Part shown: positions 6,553 to 40,420 of the stretch, piece after piece
Numbering within the stretch: position 1 is the first letter of the stretch
Layout of the letters: every line of letters begins with the position of its first letter
DNA from: Chondrosia reniformis
Lineage: Eukaryota > Porifera > Demospongiae > Chondrillida > Chondrillidae
Direction of reading: 5' to 3'
Length of the DNA stretch: 64,000 nucleotides
Assembly: GCA_947172415.1 (NCBI GenBank)
Contig: OX359202.1
Location: 3,508,001 to 3,572,000, forward strand
Notes under the pieces: generated by a model
The model's database searches: none
Told to the model about the DNA's origin: nothing
The model's input: the letters and a program-made list of their open reading frames with translations, nothing else
Position numbers and translations under genes: made by a program

Positions 6553-6642
6553 GGGGCGCCGCAGTCGTCCCTATATTGTTTTCAGAAATTATGTTAACGT
6601 ATGGCATCCTGTTCATAGTCTTGTATATATATATACATATAT

Positions 6643-15191: not shown

Positions 15192-18100
15192 GCCGAACCT
15201 GCATTTAAGGGTCCCCGAAGCTTTACAACCTATTTCCAAGTAAAATGTCCGCCAATCTCGAAACTTTGGGCTATGAAGCGTACAGAAGACCTTGCCAATG
15301 GTAAAAATGGCCGCGGAACCCGATTAAAGGGTCCCCGAAGCTCTACGACCTATCTCCTAATTAAAAATGGCCGCTGATTTCGAAAATATGGGCTATAAAG
15401 CCGTACCGAAAACCGTTCCTAGGATAAAAATGGCCGCGGAACCCGATTAAAGGGTCCCCGAAGCTGTACGACCCCTCTCCGAGTTAAAAATGGCCGCCGA
15501 TTTTGAAAATATGGACTATGGAGCCATACTGAAGACCGTTCCTTGGATAAAAATGGCCGCCGAAGCCGATTGAAGGGTCCAAGAAGCTTTACGACCTATC
15601 TCCTAATTAAAAATGGCTGCCAATTTTGAAAATATGGTATATGAAGCCGTACCGACGACCGTTCCTAGGATAAAAATGGCCGCTGAACCCGATTTTAAAG
15701 GGTCCCCGAAGGTCTACGACCTATCCCGAGTTAAAAATGGCCGCTGATTTCGAAAATATGGGCTATGGAGCCGTACCAAAGACCATTCCTAGGATAAAAA
15801 TGGCCGCCAAACTCAATTTAAGGGTCGCCAAAGCTCTACGACCTAGCTCCGTGTTAAAAATTGCCGCCGATTTCGAAAATATGAGTTATGAAGCCGTACC
15901 GAAGACCTTTTGTAGGATAAAAATGGGCGCCGAACTCGATTAAAGGGACCCCGAATGTCTACGACCTATGAAGCCCTACTGAAGACAGTTTCTAGGATAA
16001 AAATGGCCTCTGAATCCGAATAAAGGGTCCCCGAAGCTGTACGACCTATCCCCTAGTTAAAAATGGCCGCCGATTTCGAAAATATGGGCTATGGAGCCGT
16101 ACCGAAGACCATTCCTAGGAAAAAAATGGCCTCCGAACCTGATTAAATTGTCCCTGAAGCTCTACGACCTATATCTGAGTTAAAAATGGCTGCCGATTTC
16201 GAAAATATGGTCTATGAAGCCGTATGAAGACCGTTGCTAGGGTAAAATGGCCGCCAAACTCGATTTAACGGTCACCAAAGCTCTACAACCTAGCTCCGTG
16301 TTAAAAAGTGCCGCCGATTTCGAAAATATGAGTTATGAAGCCGTACCGAAGACATTTTGTAGGATAAAAATGGCCTCCGAATCCGAATAAAGGGTCCCCG
16401 AAGCTGTACGACCTATCCCGAGTGAAAAATGGCTCCTGATTTCGAAAATATAGGCTATGAAGTCGTATCGAAGACCGTTTCTGGAATAAAAATGGCCGCC
16501 GATTCCGATTAAATGGTCCCTGAAATTCTACAACCTATCCCCGAGTCAAAAATGGCCGCAGATTTCGAAAATATGGGCTATGAAGTCGTACCGTTCCTAG
16601 GATAAAAATGGCCACTGAACCCGATTTTAAAGGGTCCCCGAAGGGCTACGACCTATCCCGAGTTAAAAATGGCTGCTGATTTCGAAAATATAGGCTATGA
16701 AGTCGTACCGAAGACCGTTTCTGGAATAAAAATGGCCGCCGATTCCGATTAAATGGTCCCTGAAACTCTACAACCTATACCGAGTTAAAAATGGCCGCAG
16801 ATTTCGAAAATATTGGCTATGAAGTCGTACCGAAGACCATTCCTAGGATAAAATGGCCGCTGAATCGGATTATTGGGTCCCCGAATCTTTACGACCTAAA
16901 CCCGAGTTAAGAATGGCCGGCGATTTCGAAAATATGGGTTATGAAGCCGTTCTGAAGACCGTTTCTAGGATAAAAATGGCTGCCGAATCCGATTAAATGG
17001 TCCCAGAAGCTCTAAGATTTATCTCGGTGTTAAAAATGGCTGCCGATTTCGAAAATATGAGGTATTAAGCCGTACTGAAGACCGTTTCCAGGATTAAAAT
17101 GGCCATCGAATCCAATTAACGGGTTCCCGAAGCTCTATGATCTATCTCAGAGTCGAAAAAGGCCGTCGATTTCGAAAATATGGGCTATGAAGCCGTAACG
17201 AAGACAGTTTCTAGGATAAAAATGGCCGCCGAATCCCATTAAAGGGTCCACGAAGCTCTACGACCTATCACCGAGTTAAAAATGGCCATGAAGCCGTAAC
17301 GAAGACCGTTCCTAGGATAAAAATGGCCGCTGAATCTGAATAAATGGTCCCCGAAGTTCTACAACCTATCCCCGAGTAAAAAATGGCCGCCGATTTTGAA
17401 AATATGGGCTATTCAGCCTGACTGAAGACAGTTTCTAGGATAAAAATGGCTGCCGAATCCGAGTAAAGGGACCCCGAAGCTCTACGACCTATCCTCGAGT
17501 CGAAAATCGCCGCCAATTTCGAAAATATGAGCTATGAAGCCGTAACAAAGACCTTTTCATGGATTAAAATGGCCGCCTAATCCGAATAAAGGGTCCCCGA
17601 AGCTATACGACCTATCACTGAGTTAAAAATAGCCGCCGATTTCGAAAATATGGGCTATGAAACTGTACCGAAGACCGTTTCCAGGATAAAAATGGCCGCC
17701 GTATCGAAATGAAGGGTCCCCGAAGCTCTACGAACTATCACCGAGTTAAAAATGGCTGCCGATTTCGAAAATATGGGCTATGAAGCCGTCCCGAAGATAG
17801 TTTCCAGGATAAAAATGGCTGCCAAATCCGATTAAAGGGTCCCCGAAGCTCTCCGACCTATCCCCAAGTTTAAAATGGCCCCCGATTTTGAAAATATGGG
17901 CTATGAAGCCGTAACAAAGACAGTTTCTAGGATAAAAATGGCCGCTGAATCCGATTAAAGGGTCCCCGAAGCTCTACGACCTATCCCCGAGTTAAAAATG
18001 GCCGCAAATTTCGAAAATATGGGCTATGAAGCCGTAACGAAGACCGTTTTTAGTATAAAAACGGTCGCCGAATCTGAATAAATGGTCCCCGAAGCTCTAT

Positions 18101-21100
18101 GACCTATCCCCGAGTTAAAAATGGCCGCCAATTTGGAAAATATGGGTTTTTGAAGCCGTACCGAAGACCATTTCTAGAATAAAAATGGCCGCCGAATTCA
18201 ATTAAAGGATCCCCCGAAGCTCTACGACCTATCCCCGGGTTAAAAATGGCCGCCGAACTTTAAAATATGGGTATTAAGGCTTACCGAAGACAGTTTCTTG
18301 GATAGAAATGGCTGCCGAATCCGATTAAAGGGACCCCGAAGCTCTACGACCTATCCTCGAGTCGAAAATGGCCTCCAATTTCGAAAATATGGGGTATGAA
18401 TCCGTAAAGAAGACCTTTCTAGGATTAAAATGGCCGCCGAATCCGATTAACGGGTTCCCTAAGCTCTACGACCTCTTTCCGAGTTAAAAATGGTCGCCGA
18501 TTTTGAATATATGGGCTATGAAGCCGTACCGAAGACCTTTTCCAGGATAAAAATGGCCGCCGAATCCGAATAAAGTGTCTCCGAAGCTATACGACTAATA
18601 CCCGTGTTAAAAATGACCGCCTATTTTGAAAATATGGGCTATGAAGCCGTACCGAAGACCGTTTCTAGGTTAAAAATGGCAGTAGAATCTGAATAATGGG
18701 TCCCCAAAGCTCTACGAACTATCACCGAGTCAAAAATTGCCACCGATTTTGAAAATATGGGCTCTGAAGTCTACCGAAGACCGTTTCAGGATAAAAATGG
18801 ACGCCGAATACGAATAAAGGATCCACGAAGCTCTACGACCTATCACTGAGTTAAAATGGCTGCCGGTTTTGAAAATATGGGCTATGAAGCCGTAACAAAG
18901 ACCGTTTCAAGGATAAAAATGGCCGTCGAATCCGAATAAAGGGTCCCCGAAGCCCTACTATCTATCACCGAGTTAAAAATGGTCGCCGATTTTGAAAATA
19001 GGGGCTATGAAGCCATACCGAAGACCTTTTCTAGGATAAAAATGGCTGCCCAATCCGAATAAATCGTCCCCGAAGCTCTATGACCTATCACCGAGTTAAA
19101 AATGGCCGCCTATTTCGAAAATATGGGCTATGAAGCCGTAACGAAGACCATTTCTAGGATTAAAATGGCCGCCGAATCCGATTAAAGGGTCCCTGAAGCT
19201 CCACGACCTATCACCGAGATAAAAATGTCCACCGATTTCGAAAATATGGGCTATGAAGCCGTACCGAAGACAGTTTCTAGGATAAAATGGCCGCCGAATC
19301 TGAATAAAGGGTCCCCGAAGGTCTACGACCTATCCTTGAGATAAAAATGGTCGCCGATTTCGAAAATATGGGCTGTGAAGGCTTACCAAAGACCTTTCTG
19401 GGATAAGAATGGCCGCCGAATCCGATTAAAGGGTCCACGAAACTCTACGACCTATCCCCGAGTTAAAAATGGCCGTCGATTTCGAAAATATGGGCTATGA
19501 AACGGTTACGAAGAACATTTCTAAGATAAAATGGCCGCCGAATCAGAATTAAGGATACCCGACGCTCTACGACCTATCACTGAGATAAAAATGCCCGCCG
19601 ATTTCGAAAATATGGGCTATGAAACTGTACCGAAGACCGTTTCCAGGATAAAAATGGCCGCCGAATCTGAATAAAGGGTCCCCGAAGCTCTACGACCTAT
19701 CACTGAGTTAAAAATACCCGCCGATTTCGAAAATATGGGCTATGAAACTGTACCGAAGACCGTTTCCAGGATAAAAATGGCCGCCGAATCGAAATGAAGG
19801 GTCCCCGAAGCTCTACGAACTATCACCGAGTTAAAAATGGCTGCCGATTATGAAAATATGGGCTATGAAGCCGTCCCGAAGATAGTTTCCAGGATAAAAA
19901 TGGCTGCCAAATCCGATTAAAGGGTCCCCTAAGCTCTACGACCTAACCCCAAGTTTAAAATGGCCCCCGATTTTGAAAATATGGGCTATGAAGCCGTAAC
20001 AAAGACAGTTTCTAGGATAAAAATGGCCGCTGAATCCGATTAAAGGGTCCCCGAAGCTTTACGACCTATCCCCGAGTTAAAAATGGCCGCAAATTTCGAA
20101 AATATGGGCTATGAAGCCGTAACGAAGACCTTTTTTAGGATAAAAACGGTCGCCGAATCTGAATAAATGGTCCCCGAAGCTCTACGACCTATCCCCGAGT
20201 TAAAAATGGTCGCCGATTTTGAATATATGGGCTATGAAGCCGTACCGAAGACCTTTTCCAGGATAAAAATGGCCACCGAATCCGAATAAAGTGTCCCCGA
20301 AGCTATACGACTAATACCCGTGTTAAAAATGACCGCCTATTTTGAAAATATGGGCTATCAAGCGGTACCGAAGACTGTTTCTAGGGTAAAAATGGCAGCA
20401 GAATCTGAATAATGGGTCCCCAAAGCTCTACGAACTATCACCGAGTCAAAAATGGCCACCGATTTTGAAAATATGGGCTCTGAAGTCGTACCGAAGACCG
20501 TTTCAGGATAAAAATGGCCGCCGAATACGAATAAAGGATCCACGAAGCCCTACGAACTATCACTGAGTTAAAATGGCTGCCGGTTTTGAAAATAAGGGCT
20601 ATGAAGCCGTAACAAAGACTGTTTCAAGGATAAAAATGGCCGCCGAATCCGAATAAAGGGTCCCCGAAGCTCTACGATCTATCACCGAGTTAAAAATGGT
20701 CGCCGATTTCGAAAATATGGGCTATGAGGCCATACCGAAGACCTTTTCTAGGAAAAAATGGCTGCCGAATCCGAATAAATGGTCCCCGAAGCTCTACGAC
20801 CTATCACCGAGTTAAAAATTGCCGCCTATTTTGAAAATATGGGCTATGAAGCAGTACCGAAGACGTTTCCAGGATATAAATGGCCGCCGAATCCGAATGA
20901 AGGGTCCCCGAAATTCTACGACCTATCATCGAGTTAAAAATGGTCGCCGATTTTGAAAATATGGGCTATGAAGTCGTACTAAGACCATTTCCAGGTTAAA
21001 AATGGCCGCCGAATTCGAATAAAGGGTCCCCGAAACTCTACGACCTATGACCGAGTTAAAAATTGCCGCCAATTTTGAAAATGTGGGCTATGAAGCCGTA

Positions 21101-24100
21101 CTGAAGACGTTTCCAGGATTAAAATGGCTGCCGAATCCGAATAAAGGGTCCCTGAAGCTCTACGACCTATCACCGAGTTAAAAATGGCCACCGATTTCGA
21201 AAAAATGGCCTATGACGCCGTACCGTAGACCTTTTCTAGGATAAAAATTGACGCCAAATCTGAATAAAGGGTCCCCGAAGCTCTACGACCTATGACTGAG
21301 TTAAAAATTGCAGCTAATTTTGAAAATATGGGCTATGAAACCGTAATGAAGGTCGTTTCTAGGATAAAAATGGCCGCCGAATTTGATTAAAGGGTCCCCG
21401 AAGCTCTACGACCTATCCCCGAGTTAAATATGGCCGCCGATTTCGAAAATATGGGCTATGAAGCCGTAACGAAGACCATTTCTAGGATAAAAATGGCCGC
21501 CGAATCCGATTTAAGGGTCCCCGAATATCCACGACCTATCACCGAGATAAAAATGTCCACCGATTTCGAAAATATGGGCTATGAAGCCGTACCGAAGACA
21601 GTTTCTTGAATAAAAATGGCCGCCGAATCTGAATAAAGGGTCCCCGAAGGTCTACGACCTATCCTTGAGATAAAAATGGTCGCCGATTTCGAAAATATGG
21701 GCTGTGAAGGCTTACCGAAGACCTTTCTGGGATAAGAATGGCCGCCGAATCTGATTAAAGGGTCCCCGAAACTCTCCGACCTATCCCCGAGTTAAAAATG
21801 GCTGCCGATTTCAAAAATAAGGTCTACGAAGTTGTAACAAAGACCGTTTCTAGGATAAAAATGGCCGCCAAATCCGATTAAAGGGTCCCGGAAGCTCTAC
21901 GACCTATCCCCGAGTTAAAAATGGCCGTCGATTTCGAAAATATGGGCTATGAAACGGTTACGAAGACCATTTCTAGGATAAAATGGCCACCGAATCAGAA
22001 TGTAGGATCCCCGACGCTCTACGACCTATCACAGAGAAAAAAATTGTCGCCGATATTGAAAATATGGGCTATGAAGCCGTACCGAAGACAGTTTTGTAGG
22101 ATAAAAATGGCCGACGAATTCGAAGAACTGATCGCCGAAGGTCTTCTACCTATCACCGAGTTAAAAATGGCCGCCGATTTCGAAAATATGGGCTATGAGA
22201 CCGTAATGAAGGTCGTTTCTAGGATAAAAATGGCCGCCGAATTTGATTAAAGGGTCCCCGAAGCTCTACGACCTATCCCTGAGTTAAAAATGGCCGCCGA
22301 TTTCGAAAATATGGTCTAGGAAGTTGTAACAAAGACCGTTTCTAGGATAAAAATGGCCGCCGAATCCGATTAAAGGGTCCTCGAAGCTCTACGACCTATC
22401 CCGAGTTAAAAATGGGCGCCGATTTTGAAAATATGGGCTATGAAGCCGTACCGAAGATAGTTTCTAGGATAAAATGGCCGCCGAATCCGATTAAAGGGTC
22501 CCCGAAGCTCTACGACCTATCCCCTAGTTTAAAATGGCCGCCGATTTCGAAAATATGGGCTATGAAGTGGTAACGAAGACCATTTCTAGGATAAAATGGC
22601 CGCCGAATCAGAATGTAGGATCCCCGACGCTCTACGACCTATCACAGAGATAAAAATGGCCGCCGATATCGAAAATATGGGCTATGAAGCCGTACCGAAG
22701 ACAGTTTTGTAGGATAAAAATGGCCGACGAATTCGAAGAACTGATCGCCGAAGGTCTTCTACCTATCACCGAGTTAAAAATGGCCGCCGATTTCGAAAAT
22801 ATGGGCTATTAAACCGTAATGAAGGTCGTTTCTAGGATAAAAATGGCCGCCGAATTTGATTAAAGTGTCCCCGAAGCTCTACGACCTATCCCTGAATTAA
22901 AAATGGCCGCCGATTTCAAAAATATGGGCTATGAAGCCGAACCGAAGATAGTTTCTAGGATAAAAATGGCCGCCGAATCCGAATAAAGGGTCCCCGATGC
23001 TCTACGACCTATCCCCGAGTTAAAAATGGTCGCCGATTTCGAAATTATGACCTATGAAACCGAAACGAAGACCATTTCTAGGATAAAAATGGCCGCCGAA
23101 TCCGATTAAAGGGTCCCCGAAGCTCTACGACCTATCCCGAGTTAAAAATGGCCGCCGATTTTGAAAATATGGGCTATGAAGCCGTACCGAAGATAGTTTC
23201 TGGGATAAAAATGGCCGCCGAATCCGATAACAGGGTCCCCGAAGCTCTACGAACTATACCCAAGTTAAAAATGGCCGCCGATTTCGAAAATATGGGCTAT
23301 GAAGCTGTACCGAAGACAGTTTCTAGGATAAAAATGGCCGCCGAATCCGATTAAAGTGTCCCCGAAGCTCCACGACCTATCACCGAGATAAAAATGGCCA
23401 CCGATTTCGAAAATATGGGCTATGAAACCGAAATAAAGGTCGTTTCTAGGATAAAAATGGCCGCCGAATTTGATTAAAGGGTCCCCGAAGCTCTACGACC
23501 TATCCCTGAATTAAAAATGGCCGCCGATTTCAACAATATGGGCTATGAAGCCGAACCGAAGATAGTTTCTAGGATAAAAATGGCCGCCGAATCCGAATAA
23601 AGGGTCCCCGATGCTCTACGACCTATCCCCGAGTTAAAAATGGTCGCCGATTTCGAAATTATGACATATGAAACCGAAACGAAGACCATTTCTAGGATAA
23701 AAATGGCCGCCGAATCCGATTAAAGGGTCCCCGAAGCTCTACGACCTATCCCGAGTTAAAAATGGCCGCCGATTTTGAAAATATGGGCTATGAAGCCGTA
23801 CCGAAGATAGTTTCTGGGATAAAAATGGCCGCCGAATCCGATAACAGGGTCCCCGAAGCTCTACGAACTATACCCAAGTTAAAAATGGCCGCCGATTTCG
23901 AAAATATGGGCTCTGAAGCCGTACCGAAGACAGTTTCTAGGATAAAAATGGCCGCCGAATCCGATTAAAGTGTCCCCGAAGCTCCACGACCTATCACCGA
24001 GATAAAAATGGCCACCGATTTCGAAAATATGGGCTATGAAACCGTAATGAAGGTCGTTTCTAGGATAAAAATGGCCGCCGAATCCGAATAAAGGGTCCCC

Positions 24101-24985
24101 GAAGCTCTACGACCTATCCCGAGTTAAAAATGGTCGCCGATTTCGAAATTATGAGCTATGAAACCGAAACGAAGACCATTTCTAGGATAAAAATGGCCGC
24201 CGAATCCGATAACAGGATCCCCGAAGCTCTACGAACTATACCCAAGTTAAAAATGGCCGCCGATTTCGAAAATATGGGCTATGAAGCCGTACCGAAGACA
24301 GTTTCTAGGATAAAAATGGCCGCCGAATCCGATTAAAGTGTCCCCGAAGCTCCACGACCTATCACCGAGATAAAAATGGCCACCGATTTCGAAAATATGG
24401 GCTATGAAACCGTAATGAAGGTCGTTTCTAGGATAAAAATGGCCGCCGAATTTGATTAAAGGGTCCCCGAAGCTCTACAACCTATTCCTGAGTTAAAAAT
24501 GGACGCCGATTTCGAAAATATGTGCTATGAAGTTGTAACAAAGACCGTTTCTAGGATAAAATGGCCGCCTAATCCGATTAAAAAGTCCCCGAAGCTCTAC
24601 GACCTATCCCGAGTTAAAAATGGCCACCAATTTCGAAAATTTGCGCTATGAAGCCGTACCGAAGTCCTTTTCTAGGATAAAAATGGCCGCCGAATCCGAA
24701 TAAAGGGTCCCCGAAGCTCTACGACCTATCCCCGAGTTAAAAATGGCCGCCGATTTCTAAAATATGAGCTATGAAGCCGAAACGAACACCATTTCTAGGA
24801 TAAAAATGGCCGCCGAATCCGATTAAAAGGTCCCCGAAGCTCTACGACCTATCCCTGAGTTAAAATGGCCGCCGATTTCGAAAATATGGGCTATGAAGTT
24901 GTAACAAAGACCGTTTCTAGGATAAAAGTGGCCGCCGAATCCGATTAAAGGGTCCATGAAGCTCTCCGTCCTATCCCCGAGTAAA
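15192..24985 (+). repeat. 123-bp satellite array, left arm (about 80 copies)
   Basis: Tandem 123-bp unit made of two related halves of about 63 and 60 bp, each starting TAAAAATGGCCGCCGA. Landmarks in order are GAAAATATGGGCTATGAAG, CCGAAGACCGTTTCTAGG, then GGGTCCCCGAAGCTCTACG. The period equals 41 codons, so a frame stays in register until the TAA after GAATCCGAT. Where that TAA is changed, frames of 68-111 codons appear; I treat these as satellite by-products. The outermost unit (15240-15310) has a variant ending CCAATGG shared only with the far end of the block. Copies become more uniform towards the centre. Confidence 0.95.
22113..24440 (+). repeat. higher-order repeat of about 614 bp (5 x 123)
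   Basis: Rare variants recur at a spacing of five units: GACGAATTCGAAGAACTG at 22113 and 22726 (613 bp), GAAATTATGA at 23041 and 23655 (614 bp), and CCGATAACAGG near 23225 and 23839 (614 bp). A further copy at about 24207 is three units away. This is recent block amplification near the inner edge of the left arm. Confidence 0.8.
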
Positions 24986-26450
24986 AATGATCTTCGATTT
25001 TAAAAAATACACCTTTTTTGCCCTCACAGGCCAGTAAAGCCATTATGACCATCATCGCAAAAAAGGCCGATGAAGTCCAAAACGGCCTTTTCGAAATTGA
25101 GACTCTTAACGGCCTCCCTGGTTGGGTAGAGTCTAAATGGCAATTTTCAAAAAAAGCCTTTTTTGCCCTCTCAGGCCAGTAAGGCCGTTAAATCCCTTAT
25201 CGCCAAAAGTGCCGATGAGGTCCAAAACGGCCATTTTGGAAATGAAGCCCTTAACGGCATTACTGGCCGGCGGGAGTCAAAATGGCATTTTTCAAAAAAC
25301 GCCGATTTTGCCCTCACAGGCCAGAAAGGCCGTTAAGACCCTCATGGCCAAAAGAGCCGATATGGCCCAAAACGGCCATTTTGGAAATGAAGCCCTTAAC
25401 GGCCTTACTGGCTGGCGAAAGACAAAATGGCATTTTTCAAAAAACGCCGTTTTTGCCCTCACAGGCCAGTAAGGCCGTTAAGACCCTCATCGCCAAAAGT
25501 GCCGATGGGGTCCAAAACGGCAATTTTGGAAATGAATCCCTCAACGGCCTTACTGGATGGCGAGAGACAAAATGGCATTTTCAAAAAACGCCGATTTTGC
25601 CCTAACAGGCCAGAAAGGCCGTTAAGACCCTCATGGCCAAAAGGGCCGATAGGGTTCAAAACGGCCATTTTGGAAATGAAGCCCTGAACGGCCTTACTGG
25701 CCGGCGGGAGACAAAATGGCATTTTTCAAAAAACGCCGTTTTTGCCCTCACAGGCCGGTAAGGCCGTTAAGACCCTCATCGCCAAAAGGGCCGATGGGGT
25801 CCAAAACGGCCATTTTGGAAATGAAGCCCTTAACGGCCTTACTGGCCGGCTAGAGACAAAATGGCATTTTCAAAAAACGCCGTTTTTGCCCTCACAGGCC
25901 GGTAAGGCCGTTAAGACCCTCATCGCCAAAAGGGCCGATGGGGTCCAAAACGGCCATTTTGGAAATGAAGCCCTTAACGGCCTTACTGGCCGGCGAGAGA
26001 CAAAATGGCATTTTCAAAAAACACCGTTTTTGCCCTCACAGGCCAGTAAGGCCGTTAAGACCCTCATCGTCGAAAGGGCCGATGTGGTCCAAAACGGCCA
26101 TTTTGGAAATGAAGCCCTTACCGGCCTTACTGGCCGGCGGGAGTCAAAATGGCATTTTTCAAAAAACGCCGATTTTCCCCTCACAGGCCAGAAAGGCCGT
26201 TAAGACCCTCATGGCCAAAAGGGCCGATGGGGTCCAAAACGGCCATTTTGGAAATGAAGCCCTTAACGGCCTTACTGGCTGGCGGGAGCCAAAATGGCCT
26301 TTTTCAATAAACGCCGTTTTTGCCCTCACAGGCCAGTAAGGCCGTTAAGATCCTCATCGCCAAAAGGGCCGATGGGGTCCAAAACAGCCTTTGTGGAAAT
26401 GAAGACCTTAACGTCCCTTACTGGCCTGTGATGTCAAAATCGGCGTTTTC
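24986..26450 (+). repeat. 145-bp core repeat (about 10 copies)
   Basis: AATGGCATTT recurs at 25281, 25426, 25571, 25715, 25860, 26004 and 26148, giving a period of 144-145 bp. Each unit contains a 19-bp perfect inverted repeat, GGCCAGTAAGGCCGTTAAG and CTTAACGGCCTTACTGGCC, plus GGCC-rich short dyads. The segment GAGTCAAAATGGC resembles the start of the 123-bp half-unit, so the two satellites may be distantly related. Units of 144 bp keep codon register and give open frames of up to 153 codons on the + strand and one on the - strand. Frames open on both strands of a repeat do not support a gene. Confidence 0.9.
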
Positions 26451-26469
26451 AGAAAATTGCCATTTTGAC
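26433..26469. repeat. axis of the satellite palindrome
   Basis: A 37-bp imperfect palindrome beginning GTCAAAAT and ending ATTTTGAC, centred at 26451. Immediately right of it the 145-bp unit is read on the opposite strand (GACTCCCACTAGCCAGTGAG is the complement of the left-side edge). All 123-bp units from here to 40291 are reversed. Confidence 0.85.
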
Positions 26470-26611
26470 TCCCACTAGCCAGTGAGGCCGTTAAGGGCCT
26501 CATCTCCAAAAAGGCCGTTTTGGCCCTCAACGCTCATTGTTGGCTGAAGGTCTTAACGGCCTTACAGGTCTATCAGGGCAAAAACGGCCTTTTTTCGAAA
26601 TCGTTGGAATT
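26470..26611 (-). repeat. inverted, degenerate 145-bp core unit
   Basis: About one core unit on the minus strand, including CAGTGAGGCCGTTAAGGGC and a second GGCCGTTTTGGCC dyad, before the reversed 123-bp array begins. It is more diverged than the left-side units, so the core is lopsided about the axis (about ten units against one). Confidence 0.75.
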
Positions 26612-28110: not shown

Positions 28111-29630
28111 GCTTTGCGTACCTTTTAATCGGTTTAGACGGCCATTTTTATTCTAGAAATGGTCTTCGTTACGGCTTCCTAGCCCACATTTTCGAAATCG
28201 ACGGTCATTTTTATCTCGGTGATAGGTCGTAGAGTTTCGGGGACCCTTTAATCGGATTAGGCGGCCATTTTTATCCTAGAAACGGTCTTCGTTACGGCTT
28301 CATAGCCCATATTTTCGAAATCGGCGGCCATTTTTAACTCGGGGATAGGTCGTAGACCTTCGGGGACCCTTTAATTTGATTAGGCGGCCATTTTTATCCT
28401 AGAAACTGTCTTCGGTATGGCTTTGTAGCCTACATTTTCGAAATCGGCGGCCATTTTTATCTCGGTGATAGGTCGTGGAGCTTCGGGGACCCTTTAATCG
28501 GATTCAGCGGCCATTTTTATCCTAGAAACGGTCTTCGTTACGGCTTCATAGCCAATATTTTGGAAATCGGCGGCCATTTTTAGCTCCGTGATAGATCGTA
28601 GAGCTTCGGGGACCCTTTAATCGGATTCAGCGGCCATTTTTATCCTAGAAACGGTCTTCGTTACGGCTTCATAGCCAATATTTTGGAAATCGGCGGCCAT
28701 TTTTAGCTCCGTGATAGATCGTAGAGCTTCGGGGACCCTTTAATCGGATTCAGCGACCATTTTTATCCTAGAAACGGTCTTCGTTACGGCTTCATAGTCC
28801 ATATTTTGGAAATCGGCGGCCATTTTTAGCTCGGGGATAGGCCTTAGAGCTTTGCGGACCTTTTAATCGGTTTAGACGGCCATTTTTATCCTAGAAACGG
28901 TCTTCGTTACGGCTTCCTAGCCCACATTTTCGAAATCGACGGTCATTTTTATCTCGGTGATAGGTCGTAGAGTTTCGGGGACCCTTTAATCGGATTAGGC
29001 GGCCATTTTTATCCTAGAAACGGTCTTCGTTACGGCTTCATAGCCCATATTTTCGAAATCGGCGGCCATTTTTAACTCGGGGATAGGTCGTAGACCTTCG
29101 GGGACCCTTTAATTTGATTAGGCGGCCATTTTTATCCTAGAAACTGTCTTCGGTATGGCTTTGTAGCCTACATTTTCGAAATCGGCGGCCATTTTTATCT
29201 CGGTGATAGGTCGTGGAGCTTCGGGGACCCTTTAATCGGATTCAGCGGCCATTTTTATCCTAGAAACGGTCTTCGTTACGGCTTCATAGCCAATATTTTG
29301 GAAATCGGCGGCCATTTTTAGCTCCGTGATAGATCGTAGAGCTTCGGGGACCCTTTAATCGGATTCAGCGGCCATTTTTATCCTAGAAACGGTCTTCGTT
29401 ACGGCTTCATAGCCAATATTTTGGAAATCGGCGGCCATTTTTAGCTCCGTGATAGATCGTAGAGCTTCGGGGACCCTTTAATCGGATTCAGCGACCATTT
29501 TTATCCTAGAAACGGTCTTCGTTACGGCTTCATAGTCCATATTTTGGAAATCGGCGGCCATTTTTAGCTCGGGGATAGGCCTTAGAGCTTTGCGGACCTT
29601 TTAATCGGTTTAGACGGCCATTTTTATCCT
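28111..29630 (-). repeat. higher-order repeat of 738 bp (6 x 123)
   Basis: The rare variant GCTTTGCG (normally GCTTCGGG) occurs at 28111, 28849 and 29587, exactly 738 bp apart. The six units between, with distinctive GCTTCCTAGCCCACATTTTC and GACCTTCGGGG variants, are nearly identical between the first two blocks. The similarity ends soon after 29630. Confidence 0.88.
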
Positions 29631-32600
29631 AGAAACGGTCTTCGTTACGGCTTCATAGCCCATATTTTCGAAATCGGCGGCCATTTTTAACTCGGGGATA
29701 GGTCGTAGAGCTTCGGGGACCCTTTAATTGGATTAGGCGGCCATTTTTATCCTAGAAACTGTCTTTGGTATGGCTTTGTAGCCCACATTTTCGAAATCGG
29801 CGGCCATTTTTATCTCGGTGATAGGTCGTAGAGCTTCGGGGACCCTTTAATCGGATTCAGCGGCCATTTTTATCCTAGAAATGGTCTTCATTACGGCTTC
29901 ATAGCCCAAATTTTGGAAATCGGCGGCCATTTTTCGCTTGGGGATAGTTCATAGAGCTTCGGGGACCCTTTAATCGGATTAGGCAGCCATTTTTATCCTA
30001 GAAACGGTCTTGGTTACGGCTTCATAGCCCATATTTTCGAAATCGGCGGCCTTATTTAACTCGGGGATGGGTCGTAGAACTTCGGGGACCCTTTAATCGG
30101 ATCCAGCGGCCATTTTTATCCTAGAAATGGTCTTCGTTACGGCTTCATAGCCCATATTTTGGAAATCGGCGGCCATTTTAAGCTCGGGGATAGTTCGTAG
30201 AGCTTCGAGGACGCTTTAATCGGATTCGGCCGCCATTTTTATCCTAGACACGGTCTTCGTTACAGCTTCATAGCCCATATTTTCGAAATCAGCGGCCATA
30301 TTTAACTCGGAGATAGGTCGTAGAGCTTCGGGGACCCTTTCATCGGATTAGGCGGCCATTTTTATCCCATAAATGGTCTTCGTTACGGCTTCATAGCGCA
30401 TATTTTTGAAATCAGTGGCCATTTTAGCTCGGGGATAGGTCGTAGAGCTTCGGGGACCCTTTAATCGGATTAGGCGGCCATTTTTATCCTAGAAACGGTC
30501 TTGGTTACGGCTTCATAGTCCATATTTTCGAAATCGGCGGTCATTTTTAACTCAGGGATAGGTCGTAGAGTTTCGGGGACTCTTTTATCGGATAAGGCAG
30601 CCATTTTTATCCTAGAAACTGTCTTCGGTATGGCTTCATAGCCCTTATTTTCGAATTCGGCGGCCATTTTTATCGCGGTGATAGGGCGTGGACCTTCGGG
30701 GAACCTTTAATCGGATTCGGTGGCCATGTTTATCCTAGAAATAGTCTTTCTTACGGCATCATAGCCCATATTTTGGAAATCGGCGGCCATTTTTAGCTCG
30801 GGGATAGTTCATAGAGCTTCGGGGACCCTTTAATTCGTTAGGCGGCCATTTTAATCCTGGAAACTGTCTTCGGTATGGTTTTATAGCCCTCATTTTCGAA
30901 AGCGGCGGTCATTTTTATTTCGGTGATAGGTCGTAGAGCTTGGGGGACCCTTTAATCGGATTCAGCGGCCATTTTTATTCTAGAAATGGCCTTCGTTACG
31001 GATTCATAGCCCATATTTTGGAAATCGGCGGCCATTTTTAGCTCGGGGATAGTTCATAGAGCTTCGGGGACCCTTTAATCGGATTAGGCAGCCATTTTTA
31101 TCCTAGAAACGGTCTTCGTAACGGCTTAATAGCCAATATTTTCGAAATCGGCGGCCATATTTAACTCGAGGATAGGTCGTAGAGCTTCGGGGACCCTTTA
31201 ATCGGATTAGGCGGCCATTTTTATCCCAGAAATGGTCTTAGTTACGACTTCATAGCCCATATTTTGGAAATCGGCGGCCATTTTTAGCTCGGGGATAGGT
31301 CGTAGAGCTTCGGGGACCCTTTAATCGGAATAGGCGGCCATTTTTATCCTAGAAACGGTCTTGGTTACGGCTTCATAGTCCATATTTTCTAAATCGGCGG
31401 CCATTTATAACTCAGGGATAGATCGTAGAGTTTCGGGGACCCTTTAATCGGATTAGGCGGCCATTTTTATCCTAGAAACTGTCTTCGGTATGGCTTTATA
31501 GCCCACATTTTCGAAAGCGGCGGTCATTTTTATTTCGGTGATAGGTCATAGAGCTTCGGGGACCCTTTGATCGAATTCAGCGGCCATTTTTATCCTAGAA
31601 ATGGTCTTCGTTACGGTTTCATAGCCCATATTTTGGAAATCGGCGGCCATTTTTAGCACGGGGATAGGTTGTAGAGCTTCGGGGACCCTTTAATCGGATT
31701 AGGCGGCTATTTTTATCCTAGCAATTGTCTTCGGTAAGGCTTCATAGCCTACATTTTCGAAATCAGCGGCCATTTTTATCTCCGTGATAGGTCGTAGAGC
31801 TTCGGGGACCCTTTAATCGGATTCAGGGGCCATTTTTATCCTAGAAATGGTCTTCGTCACGGCTTCGTAGCCCATATTTTCGAAATCGGCGGCTATTTTT
31901 AGCTCGGGGATAGTTCGTAGAGCTTAGGGGACCCTTTAATCGGATTAGGCGGCCATTTTTATCCTAGAAACGGTCTTCGATATGGCTTTATAGCCCACAT
32001 TTTCGAAAGCGGCGGTCATTTTTATTTTGGTGATAGGTCGTAGAGCTTCGGGGACCCTTTGATCGGATTCAGCGGCCATTTTTATCCTAGAAATGGTCTT
32101 CGTTACGGTCTCATAGCCCATATTTTCAAAATCGGCGGCCATTTTTAGCACGGGGATAGGTCGTAGAGCTTCGGGGACCCTTTAATCGGATTAGGCGGCT
32201 ATTTTTATCCTAGCAATTGTCTTCGGTAAGGCTTCATAGCCTACATTTTCGAAATCGGCAGCCATTTTTATCTCCGTGATAGGTCGTAGAGCTTCGGGGA
32301 CCCTTTAATCGGATTCAGGGGCCATTTTTATCCTAGAAATGGTCTTCGTCACGGCTTCGTAGCCCATATTTTGGAAATCGGCGGCCATTTTTAGCTCGGG
32401 GATAGTTCGTAGAGCTTCGGGGACCCTTTAATCGGTTTAGGCGGCCATTTTTATCCTAGAAACGGTCTTCGATATGGCTTTATAGCCCACATTTTCGAAA
32501 GCGGCGGTCATTTTTATTTCGGTGATAAATCGTAGAGCTTCGGGGACCCTTTGTTCGGATTCAGCGGCCATTTTTATCCTAGAAATGGTCTTCGTTACGG

Positions 32601-35107
32601 TTTCATAGCCCATATTTTGGAAATCGGCGGCCATTTTTAGCACGGGGATAGGTCGTAGAGCATCGGGGACCCTTTAATCGGATTAGGCGGCTATTTTTAT
32701 CCTAGCAATTGTCTTCGGTAAGGCTTCATAGCCTACATTTTCGAAATCAGCGGCCATTTTTATCTCCGTGATAGGTCGTAGAGCTTCGGAGACCCTTTAA
32801 TCGGATTCAGAGGCCATTTTTATCCTAGAAATGGTATTCGTCAAGTCTTCGTAGCCCATATTTTCGAAATCGGCGGCCATTTTTAGCTCGGAGATAGTTC
32901 GGAGAGCTTCGGGGACCCTTTAATCGGATTCGGCGGCCATTTTTATCCTAGAAATGGTCTTCGTTAGGGCGTCATAGCCCATATTTTCGAAATCAGCGGC
33001 CATTTTTATCTCGTTGATAGGTCGTAGAGCTTCGGGGACCCTTTATTCAGATTCTGCGGCCATTTTCATCCTAGAAACGGTCTTCGGTACGGCTTCATAG
33101 CCCATACTTTCGAAATCGGCGGCCATTTTTAACTCTGGGATAGATCGTAGAGCTTCGGGGACCCTTTAATCGGATTTAGCTGCCATTGTTATCCTAGAAA
33201 CGGTCTTCGGTACGCTTCATAGCCCATATTTTCGAAATGGGCGGCCATTTTATCTCGGTGATAGGTCGTAGAGCTTAGGGGACCCTTTAATCGGATTCGG
33301 CGGCCATTTTTATCCTAGAAACGGTCTTCGGTACGCTTCATAGCCCATATTTTCGAAATCGGCGGCCATTTTTATCTCGGTGATGGGTCATAGAACTTCG
33401 GGGACCCTTTACTCTGATTCGGCGGCCATTTTCATCCTAGAAACGGTCTTCGGTGCGACTTCATAGCCCATATTTTCGAAATCGGTGGCTATTTTTATTT
33501 TTGTGATAGGTCATAGAACTTCGGGGACCCTTTACTCTGATTCGGCGGCCATTTTCATCCTAGAAACGGTCTTCGGTACGGCTTCATAGCCCATATTTTC
33601 AAATTCGGTGGCCATTTTTAACTCGGGGATAGATCGCAGAGCTTCGGGGACCCTTAATTCGGATTCGGCGGCCATTTTTCTCCTATAAACGGTTTTCGTT
33701 ACAAGTTCATAGTCCATATTTTCGAAATCATCGGCCATTTTGAAGTCGGGGATAGGTCGTAGAGCTTAGGGGACCCTTTAATCCGGTTCAGTGGCCATTT
33801 TTATCCTAGAAATGGACTTCGGTACAGCTTCATAGCCCATATTTTCGAAATCGGCGGCCAATTTTATTTCGGCGATAGGTCGTAAACCTTCTGGGACCTT
33901 TTAATCGGATTAAGCGGCCATTTTTATCCTAGAAACGGTCTTCGGTACGCTTCATAGCCTATATTTTCGAGATGGGCGGCCATTTTATCTCGGTGATAGG
34001 TCATAGAGCTTCAGGGACCCTATAATCGGATTCGTTGGCCATTTTTATCCTAGAAATGGTCTTCGTCACGGCTTCATAGCCCATATTTTCGAATTCAGCT
34101 GCCATTTTTAAGTCGGGGATAGGTCGTGGAGCTTCGGGGACCCTTTAATCGGATTCAGCGGCCATTTTATCCTAGAAATGGACTTCGGTACGGCTACATA
34201 TCCCATATTTTCGAAATCGGCGGCCATTTTTATCTCGCTGATAGGTCGTAGAGCTTCGGGGACACTTTAATCAGATTGAGCGGCCATTTTTATCCTAGAA
34301 ACGGTCTTCGGTAAGGCTTCATAGCCCATATTTCTGAAATTGGCGGCCATTTTTAAGTCGGGGATAGGTCGTAGAGCTTCGGGGACCCTTTAATCGGATT
34401 AGGCGGCCATTTTTATCCTAGAAACGGTCTTGGTTACAACTTCATAGCCCATATTTTCGAAATAAGCGGCCATTTTTAAGTCGGGGATAGGTCGTAGAGC
34501 TTCGGGGACCCTTTAAGCGGATTCAGCGGCCATTTTTATCCTAGAAATGGACTTCGGTACGGCTTCATAGCCCATATTTTCGTAATCGGCGGCCATTTTT
34601 ATCTCGGTGATAGGTCGTAGGGCTTCGGGTACCCTTTAATCGGATTCAGCGGCCATTTTTATCCTAAAACGGTCTTCGGTACGCCTTCATAGCCCATATT
34701 TTCGAAATCAGCGGCCATTTTTATCTCGGTGATAGGTCGTACAGCTTCAGGGACCCTTTAATCGGATTCGGCGGCCATTTTTATCCTAGAAATGGTCTTC
34801 GTTACGGCTTCATAGCCCATATATTCGAAACCAGCGGCCATATTTAACTCGGGGATAGGTCGTAGAGCTTCGGGGACCCTTTAATCGGATTAGACGGCCA
34901 TTTTTATCCTAGAAACGGTCTTCGTTACAACTTCATAGCCCATATTTTCGAAATCGGCAACCATTTTTATCTTATTGATAGGTCGTAGAGCTTCGGGGAC
35001 CCTTGATTCGGATTCAGCGGCAATTTTTATCCTAGAAACGGTCTTCGGTACGGCTTCACAGCCAATATTTTCGAAATCGTTGGTCTTTTTTAACTCGGGG
35101 ATAGATC

Positions 35108-35250
35108 TAATGTTAACAGTAAGGGTATTGAGGGAAATGTACGCGAGCGCAGGGAGCGAATTTTTTTGAAATCTCACGCATTTTTGGGCGGTCTCACTCA
35201 TTTCTTGAGAAAGTCTCACGCATGCTCTAAGCCTAGCCTTGGCAGGTCTG
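35108..35250. mobile_element. CAGACCT-ended MITE, truncated copy
   Basis: These 143 bp match the right end of the full element, 38407-38549, nearly base for base. They are followed by the same unusual satellite variant (a short ACCTTTATTC run in place of ACCCTTTAATC). The left side breaks off inside a satellite unit after GGGATAGATC. It is best read as a duplicate of the 38-kb insertion together with its flanking satellite, shortened at the junction. Confidence 0.85.
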
Positions 35251-38076
35251 CTTCAGGGACCTTTATTCAGATTCTGCGGCCATTTTTATCCTAGAAACAG
35301 TCTTCGGTACGGCTTCATAGCCCATATTTTCGAAATCTGCGGCCATTTTAATCTCGGTGATAGGTCGTAAAGCTTCAGGGACCCTTTAATCAGATTCAGC
35401 GGCCATTTTTATCTAAGAAACGGTCTTCGGTACGGCTTCATAGCCCATATTTTCGAAATCGGCGGCCATATTTAACTCGGGGATAGGTAGTAGAGTTTCG
35501 GGGACCCTTTAATCGGTTAAGGCGGCCATTTTACCCTACAAACGGTTTTTGGTACGGCTTCATAGCCCATATTTTCGAAATCGGCGGCCATTTTTAACTC
35601 AGGGATAGGTCGTAGAGCTTCAGGGACCCTTTAATCGGTTTAGGCGGCCATTTTTATCCTAGAAACGGTCTTGGTTACAACTTAATAGCCCATATTTTCG
35701 AAATCAGCGGCCATTTTTAAGTCGGAGATAGGTCGTAGAGCTTCGGGGACCCTTTAAGCGGATTCAGCGGCCATTTTTATCCTAGAAATGGACTTCAGTA
35801 TGGCTTCATAGCCCATATTTTCGAAATCGGCGGCCATTTTTATCTCGGTGATAGGTCGTAGGGCTTCGGATACCCTTTAATCGGATTCAGCGGCCATTTT
35901 TATCCCAGAAACGGTCTTAGGTACGGCTTCATAGCCCATATTTTCGAAATCAGCGGGCATTTTTATCTCGGTGATAGGTCGTACGGCTTCAGGGACCCTT
36001 TAATCGGATTCGGCGGCCATTTTTATCCTAGAAATGGTCTTCGTTACGGCTTCATAGCCCATATTTTCGAAATCAGCGGCCATATTTAACTCGGGGATAG
36101 GTCGTAGAGCTTCGGGGACCCTTTAATCGGATTAGACGGCCATTTTTATCCTAGAAATGGTCTTCGTTACAACTTCATAGCCCATATTTTCGAAATCGGC
36201 TGCCATTTTTAACTCGGGGATAGGTCTTCGATCTTCGAGGACCCTTTATTTGTATTCGGCGGCAATTTTTATCTCGGTGATAGGTATTAGAGTTTCGGGG
36301 ACCCTTTAATCGGATTCGGCGGCCATTTTATCCTAGAAACGGTTTTCGGAACGGCTTCATAGCCCATATTTTCGAAATTGGCGGCCATTTTTATCTCGGT
36401 GTTAGGTCGTACAGCTTCAGGGACCCTTTAATCGGATTCGGCGGCCATTTTTATCCTAGAAATGGTCTTCGTTACGGCTTCATAGCCCATATTTTCGAAA
36501 TCAGCGGCCATATTTAACTCGGGGATAGGTCGTAGAGCTTCGTGGACCCTTTAATCGGATTAGACGGCCATTTTTATCCTAGAAACGGTCTTCGTTACAA
36601 CTTCATAGCCCATATTTTCGAAATCGGCGGCCATTTTTATCTCGGTGATAGGTATTAGAGTTTCGGGGACCCTTTAATCGGATTCGGCGGCCATTTTATC
36701 CTAGAAACGGTTTTCGGAACGGCTTCATAGCCCATATTTTCGAAATTGGCGGCCATTTTTATCTCGGTGTTAGGTCATACAGCTTCAGGGACCCTTTAAT
36801 CGGATTCGGCGGCCATTTTTATCCTAGAAATGGTCTTCGTTAGGGCTGCATAGCCCATATTTTCGAAATCGGCGGCCATTTTTAACTCAGGAATAGGTTG
36901 TAGAACTTCGGGGACCCTTTAATCGGATTAGGCGGCCATTTTTATCCTAGAAATGGTCTTCGTTACGGCTTCATAGCCCATATTTTCGAAATCAGCGGCC
37001 ATATTTAACTCGGGGATAGGTCGTAGAGCTTCGGGGACCCTTTAATCGGATTAGACAGCCATTTTTATCCTAGAAACGGTCTTCGTTACAACTTCATAGC
37101 CCATATTTTCGAAATCGGCGGACATTTTTATCTTGTTGATAGGTTGTAGAGCTTCGGGACCCTTTATTCGGATTCAGCGGCAATTTTTATCCTAGAAATG
37201 GTCTTCGGTACGGCTTCACAGCCCATATTTTCGAAATCGGTGGTCTTTTTTAACTCGGGGATAGATCGTAGAGTTTCGGGGACCCTTTAATCGGATTCGG
37301 CGGCCATTTTTATCTTAGAAACGGTCTTCGTTACGGCTTCATAGTCCATATTTTCGAAATCGGCTGCCATTTTTAACTCGGGGATAGGTCTTCGATCTTC
37401 GAGGACCCTTTATTTGTATTCGGCGGCAATTTTTATCTCGGTGATAGGTATTAGAGTTTCGGGGACCCTTTAATCGGATTCGGCGGCCATTTTATCCTAG
37501 AAACGGTTTTCGGTACGGCTTCATAGCCCATATTTTCGAAATTGGCGGCCATTTTTATCTCGGTGTTAGGTCGTAGAGCTTCAGGGACCCTTTAATCGGA
37601 TTCGGCGGCCATTTTTATCCTAGAAATGGTCTTCGTTAGGGCTTCATAGCCCATATTTTCGAAATCGGCGGCCATTTTTAACTCAGGGATAGGTCGTAGA
37701 GCTTCGGGGACCGTTTAATCGGATTAGGCGGCCATTTTTATCCTAGAAAAGGTCTTGGTTACAACTTCATAGCCCATATTTTCGAAATCAGCGGCCATTT
37801 TTAAGTCGGGGATAGGTCGCAGAGCTTTGAGGACCCTTTAATCGGATTGAGCAGCCATTTTTATCCTAGAAATGGACTTCGGTATGGCTTCATAGCCCAT
37901 ATTTTCGAAATCGGCGGCCATTTTTAACTCAGGGATAGGTCGTAGAGCTTCGGGGTCCGTTTAATCGGATTAGGCGGCCATTTTTATCCTAGAAATGGTC
38001 TTCGTTACAACTTCATAGCCCACATTTTCGAAATCGGCGGCCATTTTTATCTTGTTGATGGGTCGTAGAGCTTCGG

Positions 38077-38549
38077 CAGACCTACCAAGTCTCACGCATC
38101 TGGCGTGAGACACACATTTGACCGTCATGTCACGCTCACACGCATATCTGTGCCAGATCTCATGCCTTTTCCTGATTCTCACTCACTGTCACACTCACTC
38201 TAGTCTCCCCAGCAGGTAGATCAGCCATACAGGCTGATGGGGCTATTCCTTGGCTGTGGAGTATATATCTTTAAATTCTTGTCGATGATCTATCCGTATC
38301 CCATTTATTACGACTTATAGACCCATGATCTAGCAGTAATCCGTAAGCGCAGCGGCGCTTTCTCCTCCATTTTTAATTGACGACGTAATGTATGGTATTA
38401 GCCATCTAATGTTAACAGTAAGGGTATTGAGGGAAATGTACGCGAGCGTAGCGAGCGAATTTTTTTGAAATCTCACGCATTTTTGGGCGGTCTCACTCAT
38501 TTCTTGAGAAAGTCTCACACATGCTCTAAGCCTAGCCTTGGCAGGTCTG
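38077..38549. mobile_element. CAGACCT-ended MITE, full copy with 6-bp target duplication
   Basis: A 473-bp non-coding element with ends CAGACCTACCAAG and complement CTTGGCAGGTCTG, inserted in a 123-bp unit. CTTCGG is duplicated on each side (38071-38076 and 38550-38555), and the uninterrupted unit reads GAGCTTCGGGGACC. It contains repeated TCTCACGCAT motifs on both strands. No transposase frame is present. The minus-strand open frames here (60-70 codons) run into satellite and are spurious. I do not assign a superfamily. Confidence 0.85.
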
Positions 38550-40291
38550 CTTCGGGGACCTTTATTCGGATTCTGCGGCCATTTTTATCCTAGAAACAGT
38601 CTTCGGTACGGCTTCATAGCCCATATTTTCGAAATAGGCGGCCATTTTTATCTCGGTGATAGGTCGTAGAGCTTCAGGGACCCTTTAATCGGATTCAGCG
38701 GCCATTTTTATCCAAGAAACGGTCTTCGGTACGGCTTCATAGCCCATATTTTCGAAATCGGCGGCCATATTTAACTCGGGGATAGGTCGTAGAGCTTCGG
38801 GGACCCTTTAATCGGTTAAGGCGGCCATTTTATCCTAGAAACGGTCTTCGGTACGGCTTTATAGCCCATATTTTCGAAATCGGCGGACATTTTTGACTCG
38901 GTGATAGGTCGTAGAGATTCGCGGACCTTTTATTCGTATTCGGCGGACATTTTTATCCTAGAAACTATCTTCGGTACGGCTTCATAGCCCATATTTTAGA
39001 AATAGGCCGCCATTTTTACCTCGGTGATAGGTCTTAGATTTTCGGGGACCTTTTATTTGTATTCTGCGGCCATTTTTATCCTAGAAACGGTCTTCGGGAC
39101 GGCTTGATAGCCCATATTTTCGAAATAGGCGGCCATTTTTAACTCAGTGATAGGTCTTAGATCTTCGGGGACCTTTTATTTGTATTCGGCGGCCATTTTT
39201 ATCCTAGAAACTATCTTCAGTACGGCTTCATAGCCCATATTTTTGAAATAGGCGGCAATTTTTAATTCACGTATAGGTCTTAGATCTTTGGGGACTCTTT
39301 ATTCGTATTCAGGGGCCATTTTTATTCTAGAAATGGACTTCGGTACGGCTTCATAGCCCATATTTTAGAAATTGGTGGCCATTTTTAACACGGAGATAGG
39401 TAGTAGAGCTTCAGGGACCCTTTAAACGGATTCAGCGGCCATTTTATCCTATGAACGGTCTTCAATACGGCTTCAGAGCCCATATGTTCGAAGTCGGCGG
39501 CCATTTTTAACTTGGGGACAGTTCGTAAAGCTTCGGAGACCCTTTAATCGATTTTGGTGGCCATTTTTATCCTAGGAACGGACTGGTACAGCTTCATAGC
39601 CCATACTTTCAATTTCAGCAGCTATTTTTAACTCCGAGATAGGTCGTAGAGTCTCAGGGACCCTTTAATCTGGTTTGGCGGCCATTTTTATCCTTGAAAT
39701 GGTCTTCGGTACAGCTTCATAGCCCATATTTTCAAAATCGGTGGCCATTTTTCACTCATAGATAGGTGGTAGAGCTTCGGAGACCCTTAAATCACGTTTG
39801 GTGGCTATTTTTATCCTAGAAACGGTCTTCGATATGACTTCATGCCCCATATTTTCGAAATTGGCAGCCATTTTTAATATATGGATAGGTAGTAGAGCAT
39901 TGGGACCCTTAAATCGTGTTCGGCGGCCATTTTTATCCTAGGAACAGTCTTTGGTATGGCTTCATGCCCATATTTTCGAAATCGACGGCCATTTTTAACT
40001 CGGAGATAGGTCGTAGAGCTCCAGGGACCCTTAAATTGGGTATGTCATTTATTTTTACCCTCGGAAGAGTCTTTGTTAGAGCTGCATAGACCAAACTTTT
40101 ACAATTGGCGGCCATTTTTATTTACAGACAGGTCGTAGAGCTTCTGGGACCCTTTAATCGAGTACGGCGGCCATTTTTACCATTGGTAAAGTCTTCTGTA
40201 CGGCTTCATAGCCCAAAGTTTGGAAATTGGTGGCCATTTTTACTCGGAAATAAGTTGTAAAACTTCGGGGACCCTTAAATTCAGGTTTGGC

Positions 40292-40420
40292 TACACAACT
40301 ACTACATACAACTAGTACATACAACTAGTACTACAACTAGTACTACAACTAGGACATACAACTAGTACACACAACTATATAGTACTACTACTAGTACACA
40401 CAACTATTACATACAACTAG
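40292..40420 (-). repeat. 13-bp minisatellite spacer, mirror of 15066-15191
   Basis: Array in the ACATACAACTAGT orientation between the satellite edge and the unknown dispersed sequence. It matches the left spacer in length and irregular units once the Tigger-like insertion is removed. Confidence 0.85.

Follow-up and report, generated by a model that had tools for sequence, protein, structure and literature searches.

Inverted satellite dyads as probable centromeres of the fourteen chromosomes of the sponge Chondrosia reniformis

We analyzed a window of 64,000 nucleotides from the sponge Chondrosia reniformis (C14:3508001-3572000, a sequence without any N), in which two arms of a 123-bp satellite point from both sides toward a core made of a distinct 145-bp satellite. 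This locus is probably the centromere of chromosome C14 and one of 14 compact, dyad-symmetric regional centromeres built on a shared plan. The initial annotation of the window had recognized a 25-kb satellite palindrome, which proved to be real (15194-40285), and had missed that the locus is one of 14, one per chromosome, and most likely a centromere. For the 14 core loci as a set, centromere identity appears very likely from their sequence. The genome searched comprised 117,379,552 bases in 15 contigs, C1 to C14 being chromosomes and C15 mitochondrial (17,451 bases, with COX1 using TGA as Trp).

Architecture of the C14 locus

The features of the window are as follows (TRF, Tandem Repeats Finder; MITE, miniature inverted-repeat transposable element).

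14..13226, + strand: pericentromeric 13-bp minisatellite TACTAGTTGTATG, interrupted (14-6553, 8791-12542, 12977-13226; TRF and orientation profile)
15066-15183, + strand: last left block of the 13-bp minisatellite, adjoining the satellite (TRF)
15194..25006, + strand: left arm, 82 units of 123-bp satellite, with a type A outer end at 15194 and an alpha inner junction
25003..26444, + strand: core, 10 units of 145-bp satellite, each a near-dyad predicted to fold into a hairpin
26445..26457, no strand: symmetry axis (26451), where the core switches orientation; a closely similar axis occurs on 7 other chromosomes
26458..26598, - strand: core, single inverted 145-bp unit
26588..38077, - strand: inner part of the right arm, 94 units of 123-bp satellite, with a beta inner junction
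38078..38576, no strand: 500-bp insertion with inverted ends, MITE-like by eye (alignment)
38577..40285, - strand: outer part of the right arm, 14 units, with a type B outer end
40295..52381, - strand: 13-bp minisatellite, inverted and interrupted, switching to + at about 52384 (TRF and orientation profile)
43182..43766, - strand: DDE_1 transposase fragment, interrupting the minisatellite and outside the dyad plan (Pfam PF03184, E 2.2e-14)

The units of the 123-bp satellite were called with a profile hidden Markov model (HMM), which gave 82 units on the + strand (15194-25006) and 108 on the - strand (26588-40285), close to the approximately 80 and 106 units estimated initially. The - units are split into 94 (26588-38077) and 14 (38577-40285), and the same model called no unit of contrary orientation within either arm. 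The single axis placed at 26451 was borne out, as the switch is flanked by the last + core unit, starting at 26302, and the first - core unit, starting at 26458. The arms around it are indeed inverted but do not meet, with the 1.6-kb core of 145-bp satellite (25003-26598) lying between them. This core consists of 11 units, 10 in + followed by one in - orientation, and because the axis lies at its right end, the left arm (9.8 kb) is shorter than the right arm (13.7 kb).

The extent initially assigned to the palindrome, 15192-40291, describes the satellite part, whereas the symmetry reaches further, into the flanking 13-bp minisatellite. On the left, the minisatellite runs in + orientation back to the start of the window, save for a small - patch at 1.0-1.5 kb. 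On the right, it runs in - orientation until 52.38 kb, then in +, and flips again at about 62 kb, i.e., 26 and 36 kb from the axis. Smaller minisatellite dyads thus continue outward on the right of C14, where the inward polarity ends.

Over stretches of about 1 kb, the C14 arms are only 84-86% alike (25 longest of 4369 inverted pairs), and the palindrome is therefore not a copied read. The description of the arms as similar and not identical was correct: about 85% alike, they differ in insertion, length and end type. Tandem blocks are present within the arms, in line with the reshaping by local unequal exchange that had been proposed. The 500-bp insertion (38078-38576), located 14 units from the arm edge, is common to the left arm of C2 and to a displaced arm copy on C10, and it appears to be a marker of arm copying between chromosomes.

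One core on each chromosome

An 801-base core query found a single locus on each of C1-C14 and nowhere else in the genome (14 of 14 candidates scored). The loci lie at 0.376-0.493 of the chromosome length from the nearer end, the length of C14 being obtained by difference. The cores span 1.4-2.3 kb and contain 10-16 tandem units of ~145 bp, which is about the length of a nucleosome. A dyad surrounds all 14 cores: 13 lie within 123-bp arms and that of C3 within arms of a 256-bp repeat.

The orientation of the core units was read with an HMM trained on eight + units taken from the core in the window. On 13 of the 14 chromosomes, the units switch once from + to -. The switch comes after the first unit on C2, C7, C10 and C11, before the last unit on C1, C9, C12 and C14, and at an internal position on C4, C5, C6, C8 and C13; its position thus ranges from after unit 1 of 11 on C2 to after unit 15 of 16 on C12. 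In the C13 core, three fragments scoring 26-35 bits, one of them called -, lie inside the + run.

In DNA folding, two of the 145-bp core units gave z-scores of -5.8 and -6.1 and the sequence across the axis -9.6, and the 123-bp arm unit gave 0.0 and 1.5. The strong hairpin former predicted by these folds is the 145-bp core unit, not the 123-bp unit. The cruciform or long hairpin RNA suggested earlier for the palindrome is a weak proposition at a length of 10 kb, because the arms differ by about 15%. Passages of a published account describe cruciform-prone dyads as common at centromeres and as proposed guides of CENP-A loading (PMC8997354).

Inward arms on thirteen chromosomes

We scanned 17 stretches, all without N, which cover the arms completely on C1, C2 and C14, over about 4 kb each on C12, and over 3-4 units per side on the other nine chromosomes. 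Arms of the 123-bp satellite adjoin the core on C1, C2 and C4-C14 and point inward in all 26 cases; not one of the 687 units counted in these core-abutting arms has the contrary orientation.

The 26 inner junctions of the 13 chromosomes were compared, C3 having no 123-bp arm. By junction, seven chromosomes (1, 2, 7, 9, 10, 11 and 14) are heterotypic, the alpha form facing beta across the core. On C12, the right junction is beta, and the left one groups with beta at a coarse cut and separately at a finer cut. Of the 32 units on the left of C12, 31.5 match alpha-side arms (those of C1, C14 and C2), and given these matches we count C12 as a probable eighth heterotypic chromosome. All eight heterotypic cores run from alpha to beta with the axis beside beta. 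Alpha stands on both sides of C5, C8 and C13, and a third junction form on both sides of C4 and C6. Among the 13 axes compared, those of the eight heterotypic cores are 84-96% identical over about 190 bases, and the five others are 67-81% like these.

The outer ends also fall into types. Three of the 12 compared are of type A (C14 left, C1 left and a displaced copy on C8), four of type B (C14 right, C1 right, C2 left and the displaced C10 copy) and five truncated or different. Types A and B are homologous to each other, including the 13-bp flank; this homology of both outer arm ends on C14 and C1 agrees with the initial suggestion of an old inverted duplication. A genome search identified further B ends at 98-99% identity (C11 left, C10 left, C13 right, C5 left and C4 left) and further A ends on C11 right (99%), C7 right (100% over 225 bases) and C10 at 3258 kb (94%). 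Type A pairs with alpha and type B with beta on C1, C14 and C11, as well as on C2 left, C10 left and C7 right. On three sides (C13 right, C5 left and C4 left), which were read at their ends only, a B outer end goes with an inner junction other than beta. The homotypic cores and these mixed arm sides suggest that some exchange of the inner parts has occurred.

Symmetry on C3 with a different arm repeat

No 123-bp arms lie near the core of C3; it is flanked instead by inverted arrays of a 256-bp repeat. The left array is about 1.5 kb long, and the right one covers at least 1.4 kb, where the sequence read ends. In their main blocks, these flanks are 90-96% identical across the core, and the C3 core, taken in its entirety, is 82% self-complementary. 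The 123-bp HMM had no match in the 256-bp repeat of C3, which is common mid-chromosome as a pericentromeric repeat (at least 425 matches, 38 of 581 candidates scored). The dyad of C3 is built of another repeat, and the symmetry is thus kept even with a different arm sequence.

The only other 123-bp dyad within the stretches read is also on C3: a coreless mini-dyad of 8 + and 8 - units at 2569570-2571562, 1.1 Mb from the C3 core. It is perhaps a relic of a former C3 centromere.

Turnover and exchange of arms

We compared the arm units by best match, keeping 719 of 779 units and dropping those with more than 12 gaps. Units of the whole arms match best with units of their own arm or with those of arms on other chromosomes; in the latter case, the arm is mostly of the same type. 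Best matches in the other arm of the same chromosome are nearly absent: 0.5 of 78 units on the left and 0 of 103 on the right of C14, 0 of 168 and 0 of 76 on C1, 1.3 of 60 and 0.5 of 51 on C2, and 0 of 32 and 0 of 31 on C12. With the own arm excluded, a few units did favor the opposite arm: 3.5 of 168 on C1 left, 2.8 of 60 on C2 left, 1.3 of 51 on C2 right and 0.3 of 78 on C14 left. The arms of one centromere on C1, C2 and C14 therefore resemble the arms of other chromosomes and not each other. Moreover, chromosomes share outer-end blocks of 14-24 units with a collinearity of about 98%.

Palindromes of Y chromosomes are maintained by gene conversion from arm to arm. Such conversion as the process keeping the sponge palindromes is unsupported on C1, C2, C12 and C14, where the best matches are hardly ever in the opposite arm.

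Within an arm, the share of units with their best match in the same arm was 0.66-0.96 in the quarter beside the core and 0.00-0.25 in the outermost quarter for five of the six whole arms. Human work leads one to expect that turnover centers on the site of the kinetochore. The concentration of same-arm matches near the core thus indicates turnover centered on the core, as expected at a kinetochore.

Polarity close to and far from the cores

Displaced copies of the arms were scored among the matches listed (7 of 156 and 21 of 164 candidates), a scope that holds for all counts of displaced arms below. At least 10 arm ends were found away from the cores. Three of them, at 64-89 kb, all point inward, and of the seven at 134-826 kb, two point inward and five outward. 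Inward polarity thus holds for 26 of 26 core-abutting arms versus 2 of 7 arms more than 100 kb away (Fisher p 9e-5, with arms sharing descent).

Two of the outward arms, both coreless, were read (C8 2578977-2584143 and C10 3328795-3333147), and three were seen as ends (C4 4435570, C8 3422380 and C12 2792722). A 123-bp match at C8 2740064 (-, left of the core and outward) has no arm end and stands outside this count. The outward coreless arms may be relics or seeds of new centromeres. Simple inversion of a local arm may in outline account for the displaced C8 arm; C10, however, keeps its own B-type left end, which makes its displaced arm an extra copy.

For the minisatellite, we located exact 52-base runs on C1-C11 among the matches listed (100 of 131), which collapsed into 73 sites in bins of 200 bases, the 12 sites of C3 being counted apart. 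Without C3, the runs point inward at 11 of 11 sites within 70 kb and at 31 of 50 beyond (p 0.013). In the stretches of C1 and C2 and on the left of C14, five sides in all, the minisatellite keeps its inward orientation as far as the sequence was read, out to 26-31 kb from the axis. Inward polarity is well founded in the 123-bp arms and over the first 25 kb, and not farther out.

A proposed mechanism for the inward polarity

The shared plan comprises a hairpin-prone 145-bp core, satellite arms aimed at one axis and a pericentromeric 13-bp minisatellite that starts with the same polarity. In our proposal, the core would be the site of CENP-A nucleosomes and of the kinetochore, aided by hairpins or cruciforms of the core units. 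Exchange between direct copies across the core would delete the core, and between chromosomes it would generate dicentric and acentric products. Exchange between inward-pointing copies would instead result in inversion of the core or in monocentric whole-arm exchanges, whichever arms were used. Chromosomes with an arm turned round beside the core would be lost. Inverted arms could thus be favored because recombination between direct copies would delete the essential core or create dicentric and acentric chromosomes. Recombination safety, which we favor as the cause of the inward polarity, is argued from topology, and we give it somewhat less than an even chance; it agrees with C3 and with the lack of consistent polarity among distant arms.

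A bolder version, which we put forward only tentatively, is that the inherited feature of these centromeres is polarity and not sequence, with recombination leaving one centromere per chromosome. It draws on the arm swap on C3, on the axis moving within the core and on arms unlike each other. If true, orientation would be a selected trait that stabilizes a repeat-rich centromere in an early-branching animal.

A histone H3 query matched seven CENP-A-like sequences on C4 (2.37-3.00 Mb), one of them with stops; across the histone fold, they are 47-55% identical to H3. In the one copy that was read, loop 1 is three residues longer than in the sponge's own H3, and the best solved relatives of the protein are Cnp1 and Cse4. 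It would be unusual for a sponge to have several CENP-A genes. A weak likeness of the 123-bp unit to the CENP-B box was noticed by eye, and we base no claim on it.

Several observations weigh against the centromere reading or against its mechanism. The score of the CENP-A-like protein against Cnp1 exceeded that against the best chain labeled as H3 by only 1.6 bits, and Pfam CENP-C_C had no match genome-wide in an exon-by-exon search, which is a weak one. The core units of C3 show no clean orientation switch, and the C3 flanks are joined also by direct matches, which are short (at most 211 bases) and A/T-rich. The right arm of C2 lacks the edge gradient of same-arm matches (0.56, 0.67, 0.85 and 0.58). 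The minisatellite of C14 points outward from 52.38 to about 62 kb, 26-36 kb to the right of the axis; with this flip at 26 kb, the inward polarity of all copies within 70 kb fails. The five outward displaced arms, 134-826 kb off, are direct copies of an arm across the core, and any supposed selection must therefore fade with distance. Lastly, shared descent alone could explain the inward polarity on 13 chromosomes.

Alternative explanations

The most serious competitor to recombination safety accepts the same centromere and assigns the function to the inverted order itself, which would be read as such, the arms folding the locus or setting up heterochromatin and thereby placing CENP-A on the core. 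It recalls Candida tropicalis, in which, according to passages of the published study, a plasmid with one arm in direct orientation did not bind CENP-A and was less stable (PMC4741521). The symmetry retained on C3 with a different arm repeat and the strong predicted hairpins of the core units and axis agree with it as well. Passages of the same study state, though, that the repeat sequence also matters in C. tropicalis (PMC4741521), whereas C3 has another repeat; furthermore, the C14 arms differ by ~15%, and the arms read whole are not homogenized with each other. We regard inverted order as a possible but doubtful explanation; it and recombination safety may both hold. Slightly less credit, in our view, is due to history only, i.e., one inverted duplication spread between chromosomes by exchange, its polarity having no function. 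The homologous A and B outer ends (3 A and 4 B of 12) recurring on more chromosomes, the close identity of the eight heterotypic axes and the collinear arm blocks are what such a history would leave. C3 and the contrast between near and far arms speak against shared descent alone: C3 is symmetric with different arms, and displaced arms beyond 100 kb have no inward bias. Nor do the five homotypic cores share the common axis sequence, and on the three sides joining a B outer end to another inner junction, the inner parts were seemingly replaced and the polarity is still inward.

Two further explanations deny the centromere or the locus itself. Another element present once per chromosome, such as a meiotic pairing site or a heterochromatin nucleation site, is improbable given the mid-chromosome position, once each on 14 of 14 chromosomes, the core-centered turnover in five of six whole arms and the pericentromeric repeats around. 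Misassembly by folding of the contig is the least credible, and we consider it very improbable. HiFi reads averaged ~12.9 kb (0.80 million reads totaling 10.31 Gb, according to passages of PMC12181767), against which the arrays are long, and yet the differences between the arms in sequence, insertion, length and end type are unlike those of a folded copy, and the 17 scanned stretches contain no N. The plan moreover recurs on 12 other chromosomes with chromosome-specific cores, and on C3 with other arms, which upholds the initial argument against a folding artefact.

Comparison with known centromeres

The closest likeness is to C. tropicalis, for which passages of the published study describe at every centromere a core of a few kb with inverted repeats, the cores being related between chromosomes (PMC4741521). 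In C. tropicalis, the repeats on the two sides of a centromere are closer to each other (97% homology on average) than to those of other centromeres, the core is non-repetitive and each repeat measures ~3.5 kb (same passages of PMC4741521). In the sponge, by contrast, the arms are closer to the arms of other chromosomes on those read whole, the core is a tandem satellite, and the whole-read arms comprise 6-21 kb of satellite. Schizosaccharomyces pombe likewise has a central core with inverted flanking repeats, as passages of PMC4741521 also state; it differs from the sponge in size, in the satellite make-up and in the animal host. In the beetle Tribolium madens, passages of the description report mostly one switch per array, conserved inversion sites and dyads both inside the monomer and in the array (PMC13081366), all of which resemble the sponge. 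The dyads of T. madens are, however, many, extending from a few to 75 kb in megabase regions (same passages of PMC13081366), unlike the one cored dyad per chromosome in the sponge, which is 16-32 kb long on the three read whole and has a separate core satellite. Viewed by the features of the Tribolium type, the sponge has a single switch on 13 of 14 chromosomes and a closely similar axis on 8 of 13 compared. In human alpha-satellite, the youngest and most homogenized repeats are central and the older ones lie at the edges, and five of the six whole arms of the sponge show a similar gradient. Human arrays are of megabase size and mostly of one orientation, without the plan of core and dyad.

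Among the papers listed by our literature search, no title or abstract dealt with sponge centromeres, and two sponge genome papers use the word once each. The C. reniformis genome note (PMC12181767) uses neither the word centromere nor the word satellite. Dyad centromeres are already known in yeasts and, from passages of PMC13081366, satellite macro-dyads in Tribolium. Within the literature searched, the full set from a sponge with one cored dyad per chromosome is new, as are the old, distinct arms where read whole and the other arm repeat of C3 with its symmetry kept. The 14 small assembled dyads together with the natural arm change on C3 make the question of orientation versus sequence testable for animal centromeres, and they would link the inverted-repeat centromeres of yeasts with the satellite centromeres of animals.

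Other features of the window

The boundaries of fission yeast centromeres are tRNA genes. We rejected tRNA genes as boundaries here, as ARAGORN called none in the window and none in two C3 stretches, and only three over 23 loci, one in a C1 flank and two in C2 flanks. A tRNA-like word noticed by eye in the 256-bp repeat of C3 was unsupported by ARAGORN or by Rfam at gathering cut-offs, with which Rfam had no match in the window or in the two other stretches searched.

At 57187-59277 on the - strand lies a frame of 697 residues with words resembling reverse transcriptase (YIDD), possibly Penelope-like by eye, for which Pfam gave no match at E 0.01. The DDE_1 transposase fragment sits ~2.9 kb beyond the right arm; we take it to be of the pogo/Tigger kind, which is thought to be the source of CENP-B.

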